Shown here piece after piece: positions 6,704 to 59,765 of a stretch of 64,000 nucleotides of DNA. The stretch lies in NCBI RefSeq assembly GCF_902779965.1, contig NZ_CACZDK010000013.1, forward strand, positions 1 through 64,000, written 5' to 3'. The stretch's first letter is position 1. The number at the start of each line of letters is the position of its first letter. The position numbers and the translations under genes were made by a program. The notes beneath the pieces were generated by a model. It was not told the origin of the DNA. It worked only from the letters and a program-made list of their open reading frames with translations, and did not search any database. This DNA comes from Fibrobacter succinogenes. GTDB lineage: Bacteria; Fibrobacterota; Fibrobacteria; Fibrobacterales; Fibrobacteraceae.

Positions 6704-7813
6704 ATGGGCTTCTTTTCCTGGCTCCTTTGTTCTATTCTCGTTGTAGCGCTTGTGCTACTGCTTTTCCCGTTTTCTGTTCGAATTGAATTTGAAGCTGGGG
6801 AGCGCGGTGCGCAGGCGCTGTTCTTTTTTTTCAAGAAGAAAATTTACGAGTACGAAAAAAAGTGGGGGCTGGGGGGAGACGACAAATGCGTAGATCGAGA
6901 GTCGCGACCAAGCTCGCTTGGGCATGACCGAGCCCAAGGGGGTGGGGCTGAGCCCCATCCAGTGAAATCTAATGCTGGTAGCGAGAGTGCGCCGCTAACA
7001 GAAGCCGTCGCAAAAAAGCCCGCAGACTCTCCGAAGACGGAATGTTTGGAGATGAGAGACGAGAGACGAGAGACGAAAGACGAGAGAGAAGTCGGAAGTC
7101 GGAAGTCGGAAGTGGGAATTAGTGAAAGTGAAAAGCGAGAATCTCAACCCGCGTCATCCTCGACCGTCAGGGAGGGGATCCATAATGTCTCGGATTGCAC
7201 TTGCGAAAAAGATCCAGTGAAGTCTAGTGATGACAGCGAAAATGCGCAACCTGCGAAAGTGAAGGCATCGTCTGTAGTTGAAGTCAAAGAATCCAAGCAT
7301 CACGATGCAGAAAAGTCAGAGACGTCAGCCGACGATTCAAAAAAGAAGCCGAAGAAAGAAAAGCGCAAACTCTCGGACCGCGAATTTTGGACAATCCTCT
7401 TAACTCCAGACTTGGATGCTCGGGCTTTTAGATATGTAATGAAAATTCTTGGTGCTGTGTTTTCGCTGTTCCGCATTCGCTTTAAGGATTGCTTTGTCGA
7501 AGGCATCCAGACGGATTACCAGACTATGGGATACTTGGCTGCGACGAATGGAGTTTTAAAGGCTTTCCCGTATGTTGGCGATTGGGACTTGAGAATGGAC
7601 TGGTGCCGTGAAAAGGAACTCCGTGCGGCGGGTGCTGTTCGATTGAGTGTCACTTTGCTTCGCGTTTTCTGCTTTGTGCTTGAAACGCTTGTGCTTGCTG
7701 GAATTTTGGCGTTCAGCTTTTGGCGCCGTCGTGCACGAGTGATTAAAACAAATGAACTCCCGGAATTGGGTTTTGTTCGCAAAAAGATTCTGAATATTAT
7801 TTTGGAGGACTGA
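6704..7813 (+). CDS. DUF2953-like membrane protein with repeat-derived linker
   Basis: 369 aa. It has an N-terminal membrane helix (MGFFSWLLCSILVVALVLLL), a long charged low-complexity linker (about 62-215), then a conserved C-terminal region (DREFWTILLTPDL ... RIRFKDCFVEG ... GDWDLRMDW) and a second hydrophobic segment (about 315-340). The C-terminal half resembles DUF2953; function unknown. The linker DNA consists largely of sequences that elsewhere in this window are intergenic repeats (see 6896-7192). It also carries a diverged duplication, PVKSNAGSESA and PVKSSDDSENA. The stop overlaps the next start (TGATG). Confidence 0.65.
   Translation: MGFFSWLLCSILVVALVLLLFPFSVRIEFEAGERGAQALFFFFKKKIYEYEKKWGLGGDDKCVDRESRPSSLGHDRAQGGGAEPHPVKSNAGSESAPLTEAVAKKPADSPKTECLEMRDERRETKDEREVGSRKSEVGISESEKRESQPASSSTVREGIHNVSDCTCEKDPVKSSDDSENAQPAKVKASSVVEVKESKHHDAEKSETSADDSKKKPKKEKRKLSDREFWTILLTPDLDARAFRYVMKILGAVFSLFRIRFKDCFVEGIQTDYQTMGYLAATNGVLKAFPYVGDWDLRMDWCREKELRAAGAVRLSVTLLRVFCFVLETLVLAGILAFSFWRRRARVIKTNELPELGFVRKKILNIILED
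6896..7192. repeat. three repeat families inside a coding region
   Basis: 6896-6932 is an inverted copy of the 37-nt hairpin element of 8586 and 19506, with flanks CGAGAGTCGC and ATGACCGAG and a different but paired stem. 7051-7120 is a ten-unit heptamer array (GACGAGA and CGGAAGT types). 7153-7192 is a GTCATCCTCGACCG...GGATCCATAATGTCTCG palindrome. All are read through by the DUF2953-like gene without a stop. Confidence 0.8.
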
Positions 7814-8517: not shown

Positions 8518-8585
8518 TAAAGGAGATGCCCCGTCAAACGTAAGGGGTGAAAAATAATGGATGGGGCAAGCCCCAACCTCTTTGA

Positions 8586-8622
8586 CTCGGTCATAGCCAT
8601 ACAAGTATGGCTGCGACTCTCG
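8586..8622. repeat. 37-nt element with covarying hairpin, copy 1
   Basis: Constant flanks CTCGGTCAT (8586-8594) and GCGACTCTCG (8613-8622) surround a perfect 8-bp hairpin AGCCATAC-AA-GTATGGCT. Outer arms AACCTC (upstream) and GAGGTT (downstream) pair as well, giving a longer cruciform. Copies lie at 19506 and, inverted, at 6896. The surrounding 8518-8670 also holds GGGGC/GCCCC and GAGGATGAC fragments and no gene. Confidence 0.8.
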
Positions 8623-8678
8623 CCATTTGAGGTTGTCCCTACGCTTCGCTTCGAGGATGACGGGGCATGACAAAGAAA

Positions 8679-10431: not shown

Positions 10432-10611
10432 GCGTCGGCCAAGGATGGGGAGGGTGCAGGGAGGGGCCCGTGCGGCCTTCGCAGTAGCGTGCAAAACGAG
10501 TGTTGCGACGGGCTGCTTGCAGACCGGCATAACCGAGTGAAGCCGCTGACGCCTAGGCGTCAAAAGCATCAAAGCTCTCTGAGCTGGGGCCCCGCCCGCA
10601 AGACGTACTTT
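10432..10611. repeat. GC-rich structured repeat, long copy
   Basis: The first 52 bases (10432-10483) are identical to 53317-53368. The last 31 (10581-10611) match 53374-53404 with three differences. GGGAGGGGCCC (10459-10469) pairs with GGGCCCCGCCC (10587-10597) across about 117 nt, which contain the perfect 16-nt palindrome TGACGCCTAGGCGTCA. Much GC-richer than its surroundings. The rest of the gap 10366-10731 holds only the promoter region described next. Confidence 0.8.
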
Positions 10612-19274: not shown

Positions 19275-19782
19275 AGATCCATATTGACATTGTACATGGT
19301 TTGCAATGCAGCGATGTCGTTGAGTGCTGTGTCTAGTAGTAGTGCTCTTGACTTTAATGTTTCAAAGGACTATATTTGGTACTGAATTTAGTTCTTGATT
19401 CTAGGCGTGATTTAGAAGATGCTGTTTGGAATCGTATGATGTATCCGTTTATGTAAACGCTTGTTGTTTTGCTTCATAAACCGGGTGTTGCAGAAACCTC
19501 TGCGGCTCGGTCATAGTCATGTAAGCATGACTGCGACGCTCGCCTTGCTTGGTTTGCGGGCTGGCGTTTGAAGCCCGCTCAGTGGCGGGCATGACATGTT
19601 TAGAGCCAAGGCTGAAGCGAGGGGGACGCTTCCCCCATTTTATATCGAGACTTGACTGGATCCTTCGTCGCCAGCTCCTCAGGATGACGCTTTCCTTTTA
19701 CTACCAACAGTCTACTGTTTACTAACCACTAGATTTGACTGGATCCTATCGGTCGCGATGCTCCCTCCAGGATGACGGATCG
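19275..19782. repeat. repeat-rich intergenic block
   Basis: No gene seen in 19275-19782. It contains the second copy of the 37-nt hairpin element (19506-19542; stem AGTCATGT/GCATGACT), a GCCCGCTCA-GTGGCGGGC hairpin, two GGATCC...AGGATGAC palindromes (19656-19688 and 19735-19776), and a heptamer array TTAC-TAC-CAAC-AGT-CTAC-TGT-TTAC-TAA-CCAC-TAG (19698-19732) between them. Confidence 0.75.
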
Positions 19783-53316: not shown

Positions 53317-53404
53317 GCGTCGGCCAAGGATGGGGAGGGTGCAGGGAGGGGCCCGTGCGGCCTTCGCAACTCCGAGCTTGGGCCCCGCCCGCATGACGTT
53401 CTTT
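53317..53404. repeat. GC-rich structured repeat, short copy
   Basis: 53317-53368 is identical to 10432-10483 and 53374-53404 matches 10581-10611 with three changes. Here only 5 nt lie between the two blocks instead of 97. GGGAGGGGCCC (53344-53354) pairs with GGGCCCCGCCC (53380-53390). Located between divergent ychF and MATE genes; the remaining sequence of 53193-53498 shows no gene. Confidence 0.85.
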
Positions 53405-57741: not shown

Positions 57742-58728
57742 GTGAAAAAATTTTTGTTATTACTTAGCCTTATTTTAGTAGCTGTGCTTTTTGTATCGTA
57801 TTCAAAGAAAAAAGCGGAATTCGAAAAGTACGAAGCCATGATTGCAGAAACTAATGCTTGCCTTGCTGCAGGCGATTGGAAATGTGCCGAGGAAAATGTT
57901 CGCGAACTTTTGAAGTCAGAACCGAACGATACAAATTTGCAGTTGCATATGGCAGGCATTCTTTTTGAGCAGGAACGTTATCAGGAATGTATTCGCTATA
58001 TTGAAACTTTGAATTTTAAACATAAGGATTTAGATTACCTTGTTGAAAAGTCAAATCTTTTGGAACAGGAAATGGCGCAACTGGGCGTTGAAAAGTCCAT
58101 GCATTTCCGTTTGGAATTCGATGGCGGCCCCTCCAAGAAAGATGTGATGGAAGCGCTTGCCGTTTTGGAAGTCGCCTACGATTCAATTAGTAATTTGTTC
58201 GACTTTATGCCCGAAAATAAAATGTGCTTGGTGCTGTATCAGGATAAGGAATATCAAGGTGTGGGCCCGCGCCCTGATTGGGTGGCTGCCGTGTTCGATG
58301 GAAAGTTGCGTGTGCCCGTGAACTTGATGGCGTATCGTGAAGTTTATCGCCCGGTGCTGTTTCATGAATTAACTCACGCGTTTGTGCGTTCTATGACGCA
58401 GGCAAAGGTCCCGCTTTGGATGAACGAGGGAATTGCTCAAGTCATAGATGCTTCGCATAATAACGAAGAACGCCCGGCGGGATCATACCCAAGTATTGAA
58501 TCGCTCACGGAATCGTTTGTAGATGAATCGAATACGGAAAAAGCGACGAAATTTTATTGGTTTTCTAGGCGAATGGTCGAGGAACTTTTGTGGCGCGATG
58601 GCGGCGGCCCGGAGGCTTTCCGCAATTTTGCAAAATGCTTGCAGGACTTGCGCAAACTTGGGACGGATGGCGCATTGCAAAAGTATTACGGAACAAACGC
58701 TAAAGATTTGTTGGAATCGATTCGGTGA
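57742..58728 (+). CDS. membrane-anchored zinc metallopeptidase (gluzincin) with TPR
   Basis: 328 aa from GTG 57742 with GGAAG upstream. One N-terminal membrane helix (KFLLLLSLILVAVLFV), a TPR region (about 30-100, DWKCAEENVRELLKSEPND), then a gluzincin (peptidase MA-like) domain. This has HELTHAF as the zinc-binding HExxH and a downstream PLWMNEGIAQ whose Glu is the third ligand. It should cut proteins outside the cytoplasmic membrane. The stop overlaps the region of the asparaginase start, so the two may be co-transcribed. Confidence 0.82.
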   Translation: MKKFLLLLSLILVAVLFVSYSKKKAEFEKYEAMIAETNACLAAGDWKCAEENVRELLKSEPNDTNLQLHMAGILFEQERYQECIRYIETLNFKHKDLDYLVEKSNLLEQEMAQLGVEKSMHFRLEFDGGPSKKDVMEALAVLEVAYDSISNLFDFMPENKMCLVLYQDKEYQGVGPRPDWVAAVFDGKLRVPVNLMAYREVYRPVLFHELTHAFVRSMTQAKVPLWMNEGIAQVIDASHNNEERPAGSYPSIESLTESFVDESNTEKATKFYWFSRRMVEELLWRDGGGPEAFRNFAKCLQDLRKLGTDGALQKYYGTNAKDLLESIR

Positions 58729-58760
58729 GAATCGTGTTGGATTGTACGATGGTGGCGGCA

Positions 58761-59765
58761 ATGAAAAACATTGTGATTTTGGCGACTGGCGGAACGATTG
58801 CTGGCGCAGGCGAACAAGGTAAAGATATCGGCTATAAGTCGGGCTCTATCAAAGCGCAAACGTTGATTGATGCGGTCCCTGAATTGAAAAATGTGGCAAA
58901 CATTTGCGTGGAGCAGTTTTGCAATATCAATTCGGACGATGTTACTTCTGAAATTTGGATTGCTTTGGCGAAGCGGATTCAGGAACTTTCGCAACGCGAG
59001 GATGTGGACGGTTTCGTGATTATGCACGGAACCGATACGATGGAAGAAACCGCATTTTTCTTGAGCTTGACGCTAGGTGCGGGGGCGAATTGTAAAGAAC
59101 AAATTGCCGCACAAAATGCTGCGAAACCGGTGGTTCTGACAGGCTCGATGCGCCCCGCAACTGCTGCAGAACCCGATGGCCCCGCGAATCTCCTCTTTGC
59201 CGTAAAAAGCGCGGTAGCCCTGTCATGCCAGAATCCTGTCATCCTGGAGCCAAAGGCGATAGGATCCAGTGCTGTTTACGTAGCCTTCGCAGGCAAACTC
59301 ATGGACGCCCGCACTGTGCAAAAAATCCATGCGAACGATTTGGACGCATTCTCGTCATTCTCGACCGAAGGGAGGGAGTCCATTATTTCTCGTTTCGACG
59401 TTTCCTCTTTGCGTTCCCTCCCGCGCGTCTCCGTCCTTTACTTTAACGCCGATGCTGATGCCGACCTTTTGCACTTTGCCGCAGAACGCTCGGCTGGGCT
59501 TGTGATTGCTGGTGCTGGCGCTGGAGAATTTTCGCTGTCATGGGCTGCAGTCATTGCAGAAATCGTCGCGCAAAAGAAAATCCCGGTGGTCATTTCTACG
59601 AGAATCAATCGCGGTTGCATTGTGCCGGAGCAACTCCTTGTTTCCGGAACGATTGCTGCTTATGATTTGCCACCCGCAAAAGCGGCGGTGCTATTGCGGC
59701 TTGCTTTAACTGTAACGAATGATTCCGCGACAATACAGGAATTCTTTCGAAATAGCGTCGGGTGA
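58761..59765 (+). CDS. L-asparaginase with repeat insertions
   Basis: 334 aa from ATG 58761, where the family similarity begins (KNIVILATGGTIAG); a GTG at 58725 overlapping the previous stop is an alternative. It hydrolyses asparagine to aspartate and ammonia. Catalytic motifs are intact: TGGTIAG with the first Thr, and MHGTDTMEETAFFLS with the second Thr-Asp pair; GSMRPATAAEPDGPANLL follows. Residues 160-170 (VILEPKAIGSS) and a loop near 198-210 are encoded by copies of dispersed palindromic repeats. Relative to the family the first adds roughly a dozen residues between the NLL helix and the conserved A-R-T region. No signal peptide, so probably cytoplasmic. Confidence 0.85.
   Translation: MKNIVILATGGTIAGAGEQGKDIGYKSGSIKAQTLIDAVPELKNVANICVEQFCNINSDDVTSEIWIALAKRIQELSQREDVDGFVIMHGTDTMEETAFFLSLTLGAGANCKEQIAAQNAAKPVVLTGSMRPATAAEPDGPANLLFAVKSAVALSCQNPVILEPKAIGSSAVYVAFAGKLMDARTVQKIHANDLDAFSSFSTEGRESIISRFDVSSLRSLPRVSVLYFNADADADLLHFAAERSAGLVIAGAGAGEFSLSWAAVIAEIVAQKKIPVVISTRINRGCIVPEQLLVSGTIAAYDLPPAKAAVLLRLALTVTNDSATIQEFFRNSVG
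59222..59390. repeat. palindromic repeats inside the asparaginase gene
   Basis: 59238-59270 is GTCATCCTGGAG, seven bases, then CGATAGGATCCAGT. The inverted intergenic copy at 19735-19775 has the same two ends. It is preceded by a partial copy GTCATGCCAGAATCC (59222-59236). 59354-59390 is GTCATTCTCGACCG...GAGTCCATTATTTCTCG, matching 7153-7192 in the DUF2953-like gene. Confidence 0.8.

Follow-up and report, generated by a model that had tools for sequence, protein, structure and literature searches.

A disordered linker as a probable sink for dispersed repeats in a Fibrobacter gene, with similar captures in other genes of the genome

In a 64,000-nucleotide stretch of Fibrobacter succinogenes DNA, analysed at its full length and called the window here, the gene at 6704–7813 carries copies of three dispersed repeat families within its reading frame. 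Very probably, a pre-existing and permissive linker of the encoded protein has acted as a repeat sink, in which in-frame captures were reshaped by recombination and slippage, and the same has taken place in about two dozen other genes.

The host gene and the repeats within it

Profile models for families A and C were built from intergenic copies only and searched with nhmmer; they gave no match in the reversed window. The features of the window are as follows, where G075 is the closest relative of the genome of the window (G000).

6704..7813, + strand: host gene, 369 aa, uninterrupted open reading frame (ORF), with orthologues in genus genomes
6872..7345, + strand: linker, residues 57–214, predicted to be disordered, pLDDT < 50 almost throughout
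6880..6960, + strand: hairpin element A, in frame; nhmmer match 6880–6940, E 2.4e-17; chimera of two G075 copies
6896..6932, + strand: 37-nt core of A, CGAGNGTCGCG-stem-CATGACCGAG; contains the breakpoint of the 180-bp difference from G075
about 7049..7087, + strand: heptamer array 1, (AGACGAR)n
about 7088..7120, + strand: heptamer array 2, (GAAGTCG)n
7152..7191, + strand: element C, imperfect palindrome GTCATCC...GGATCC (7153–7181) plus conserved 3' flank; nhmmer E 2.4e-14
7367..7810, + strand: conserved C-terminal region, residues 222–369; dN/dS 0.07–0.16; invariant columns
8570..8638, − strand: intergenic hairpin A copy; nhmmer E 9.9e-15; no gene called over the copy
19496..19553, − strand: intergenic hairpin A copy; nhmmer E 4.4e-10
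59352..59391, + strand: second genic element C copy; nhmmer E 5.8e-10; in frame in the asparaginase gene 58725–59765

The repeats described in an earlier note on this DNA were recovered. Its inverted copy of the 37-nt hairpin corresponded to A at 6880–6940, on the strand opposite to the copy at 8570–8638, its ten-unit heptamer array to about ten units split over two arrays (7049–7120), and its GTCAT...GGATCC palindrome to element C. The absence of stop codons from the repeats was also confirmed, as the 369-residue frame remained open throughout with zero stops across them. The 331-bp repeat-bearing segment had 43 matches in its own genome.

One neighbour of the gene is MlaC-like, and the other, on the opposite side, encodes an RNA pseudouridine synthase (Pfam); an orthologue was found in 77/80 genus genomes. 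The named relatives with an orthologue were all Fibrobacter and included several metagenome-assembled genomes of F. succinogenes. In many genus genomes, the gene was 5–8 kb from a contig end, which suggests a long repeat just upstream. The host had been described as DUF2953-like, for which no basis was found: PF11167 had no match in the protein and none in the whole genome at E ≤ 10. The 369-aa protein matched no Pfam family, and a fold search using its low-confidence model gave no result. The model, built from 11 sequences, predicted a membrane helix, three strands, a region with pLDDT < 50, helices and strands, and a second long helix, predicted to be hydrophobic, at the C-terminal end of the conserved region. 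The linker had been placed between a membrane helix and a conserved domain; this general placement stood, except that three predicted strands intervene between helix and linker. That it is charged and disordered-looking agreed with its composition and with pLDDT < 50 for nearly all of residues 57–214.

Compared with 14 relatives, dN/dS was 0.07–0.16 for the C-terminal part and 0.08–0.35 for the N-terminal part. Purifying selection is strong at both ends of the protein, so that any expression of the gene must include translation of the linker in between. The selection on both sides, together with the matches of the copies to models built from intergenic sequence, supported the claim that dispersed repeats had become coding sequence.

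The heptamer peptides are low in complexity and charged, so that a charged linker of this kind might resemble the repeats by chance. This was contradicted by nucleotide E-values between 1e-14 and 1e-17 for the intergenic-built models, by zero matches in reversed controls, and by codon shuffling, which left 0.0 heptad arrays vs. 34 observed; chance is therefore next to impossible as an explanation. It is also extremely improbable that the gene is decaying, or that the repeats were introduced by misassembly of a genome obtained from a metagenome. Several of the genomes are metagenome assemblies, and the G075 orthologue has a 79-bp gap in the linker that causes a frameshift and breaks the ORF in two, which means that the gene can be lost or that the assembly is wrong there. 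However, the frame was open in nearly all orthologues, purifying selection was strong, and the same kind of insertion was found in genomes of 9–30 contigs, such as G047, G008, and G005.

Age and turnover of the linker

The linker was present in all orthologues measured (68/68), with lengths from 82 to 224 residues, and most of these linkers contained neither hairpin nor GTCAT elements. Outside the clade of the window, linkers of 82–177 aa consisted mostly of alanine, proline, and charged residues, and mostly lacked A or C. In the window linker, the three families together made up only about a third of the length. Judging from these sequences, the linker is older than the repeats.

The earlier note had the linker assembled from repeats, as new coding sequence joining the helix to the domain. 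Linkers were indeed longer in the repeat-bearing clade, with a median of 159 aa vs. 125 aa outside, but an origin from repeats is very unlikely, as it was contradicted by the linker found in every measured orthologue outside the clade. The associated prediction of short linkers in strains without the insertions was borne out only in part: strains without a given repeat exist, but outside the clade their linkers still ranged from 82 to 177 aa.

Within the clade of 17 sequences, the combinations of repeats in the linker differed among strains. A and C each changed state at least 6 times on a tree of the conserved parts, which was a quick tree with several weak forks. In another, unrelated lineage, heptad arrays of a different unit, AAAATTC, were found in the same linker (G029 and G027).

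The comparison with G075 revealed how the linker changes. In the pairwise alignment, the linker of G075 contained two hairpin copies where that of the window contained one, and the two genes differed by exactly 180 bp (60 codons), with breakpoints in the shared 37-nt core. Given these breakpoints, the window copy combines the 5' part of the first G075 copy with the 3' part of the second. The more distant G005 also had two hairpin copies, suggesting that the window lineage lost the 180-bp segment. In addition, one heptamer array differed by 21 bp, or three units; no smaller change in heptamer number would preserve the reading frame. Together, the 180-bp and 21-bp differences point to recombination and slippage as processes that reshape the linker in frame.

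The sequence of events under the sink explanation would be as follows. The disordered linker, which presumably has no sequence-specific task, would have been permissive to insertions of short dispersed repeats. Copies of three mainly intergenic families, which are probably mobile, would have been inserted in the sense direction and free of stops, and selection on the C-terminal region presumably acted as a filter by which frame-breaking insertions were lost. Later, recombination between two hairpin cores and slippage of heptamers would have altered the linker by whole codons. At base level, neither a clean target-site duplication nor an empty site could be identified, which counts against the insertion reading, and exchange between strains could mimic repeated insertion.

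Repeat families and their copies in other genes

The heptamer pattern was found in 69/80 genus genomes, and the 37-nt hairpin core in 71/168 phylum genomes, all of the same family; reversed controls were zero for both. The stem of hairpin A has 7 pairs, with 94% of cells paired and a covariation of 0.855 vs. 0.244 when shuffled and at most 0.15 when slid; the stem flanks carry no covariation evidence, because the search pattern fixed them. Element C is only an imperfect palindrome, and the heptamers are not palindromic. The seven-base period recurred with differing unit sequences. A single preferred reading frame for A was rejected, as different genes used three frames.

Other repeats were also observed. 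Many intergenic A copies of the genome had AGTAGGA/AGTAGAC heptamers on either side, so that hairpin and heptamers looked like a single composite element. A perfect 52-nt direct repeat occurred in the window at 10432–10483 and 53317–53368, 43 kb apart, and each of its copies had a second, diverged repeat close by; this is another dispersed family.

The three families had been described as otherwise intergenic here. This did not hold, and the host gene is not an isolated case. Element C was also found in the asparaginase gene of the same window, between the Pfam domains at residues 15–214 and 234–341, and all three families occurred in other genes genome-wide. Genome-wide counts were based on the matches listed from the searches and on a 464-kb sample, with genes called by our own codon-usage model. 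Among the matches listed, about 25 genes of the genome overlapped A, C, or heptamers, the host gene being one of them. Pfam gave names to most of these genes, among them RNase HII, MnmE, UvrB, ParB, FeoB, ZnuA, and RlmL as well as a topoisomerase, asparaginase, a NUDIX hydrolase, an SNF2 helicase, and others. In the 464-kb sample, 24/28 heptad arrays and 15/16 A copies were intergenic. Given that coding sequence makes up 87.5% of the sample, this still amounts to strong avoidance of genes. The heptad arrays inside genes were of the stop-free kind: 4/9 stop-free arrays in the sample were genic vs. 0/19 of the others (p 0.006).

The genic copies were located at positions that spare the fold. The inserts of MnmE (322–371) and RNase HII (about 137–215) had no counterpart in solved structures, and those of asparaginase, ParB, UvrB, a pseudouridine synthase (L136), and others were between Pfam domains. 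Across the genus, the MnmE and RNase HII loops were filled with different repeats in different strains and were nearly empty in some. In 128 coding sequences of three genes, 60/60 repeat matches fell in the variable segment, which comprised 27% of the bases; the p-value of this result is not to be taken literally, because the segments were set after inspection and the orthologues are related. The MnmE and RNase HII loops also contained further families, such as GTCATTGCGAGG-type and CCCCGGA...TCCGGGG hairpins (loci L205–L264). Very probably, the process proposed for the host gene has also taken place in about two dozen other genes, in their loops and in the linkers between their domains.

The orientation of the copies was not random. 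Among the matches listed for the genome, the A and C copies clearly internal to genes were all in the sense direction (11/11, p 0.001); three genic antisense A calls were left out of this count, because they touched the ends of called ORFs. Intergenic co-directional copies also leaned toward sense, by 17 to 6 (p 0.03). The all-sense orientation hints at something beyond passive tolerance.

Both this orientation and the strong covariation of the stem would be expected if the repeats were kept as RNA, with the hairpin working in the mRNA and the coding position incidental. We consider this unlikely. In close relatives, the gene is retained in the absence of the hairpin. The window copy, being chimeric, has an outer stem that has ceased to match the intact elements, and the heptamers are without such structure here. 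Selection on a DNA hairpin during copying would also give covariation. No Rfam family matched the hairpin at E ≤ 1, and the Rfam search of the window returned tRNAs only. An active process in Fibrobacter, perhaps linked to transcription or RNA, that copies structured repeats sense-wise into permissive loops is a possibility to which we assign a low probability. If it were true, the fixed loops of core enzymes would be strain-specific repeat sinks.

Relation to known repeat systems

Rickettsia palindromic elements (RPEs) are found in protein-coding genes (Ogata 2000, 2002; Claverie and Ogata 2003, as presented in PMC2996958 and PMC3733652). Similar to RPEs as portrayed in those two accounts, the repeats of this study are dispersed palindromic sequences that occur between genes and, in frame, in housekeeping genes at non-structured positions, and uvrB is a host in both. 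Copies of A, C, and the heptamers were all found both between genes and in frame within them, A folds through its covarying 7-pair stem, and the inserts of MnmE, RNase HII, and the inter-domain regions lie at positions that spare the fold. Different from RPEs as so described, the Fibrobacter sequences are probably distinct, and the host is a gut and rumen genus, not an intracellular parasite. Moreover, several unrelated families, including heptamer arrays, share linkers in Fibrobacter, and strain-by-strain turnover is visible within one genus.

According to Di Nocera and colleagues (2013, PMC3733652), intragenic REPs with GTAG or CGTC tags are read in frame within genes for repair, replication, and tRNA modification, and are proposed to be neutral when located in linkers or loops. 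Similarly, the Fibrobacter repeats are REP-like and lie in frame in such genes. However, neither family was consistently tagged: GTAG at the repeat end was not constant in the alignments of A copies or C copies, and neither was CGTC, as GTCAT was constant in C but the base before it varied. By these criteria, the repeats do not belong to a tagged REP family. A RAYT transposase as mover was rejected, since the Y1 tyrosine transposase family PF01797 had 0 matches in the genome of the window, an absence that is not absolute as this genome is 97% complete. PF01797 was present in 27/80 genus genomes.

Cyanobacterial STRRs are arrays of heptanucleotides. The TAACTGA repeats of Beggiatoaceae are described as mainly intergenic and contain a stop (PMC4679880). 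Similar to both, Fibrobacter has seven-base tandem repeats at many sites per genome. Different from both, it has several unit sequences per genome and stop-free units inside genes.

No published work on such repeats in Fibrobacter was found in the literature searched. What is seen in the window gene recurs across the genus, as a pattern that appears to work like RPEs and intragenic REPs, with more families and visible turnover. Previously, in-frame capture of intergenic repeats was known mainly from Rickettsia and scattered REP-rich genomes. Since the genus provides 80 genomes, at least three families, and loops whose repeat content differs from strain to strain, insertion, recombination, and selection become traceable at single loci. 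Strain-specific "domains" in the housekeeping proteins of Fibrobacter may be translations of repeats, which matters for annotation and for phylogenies based on such genes.
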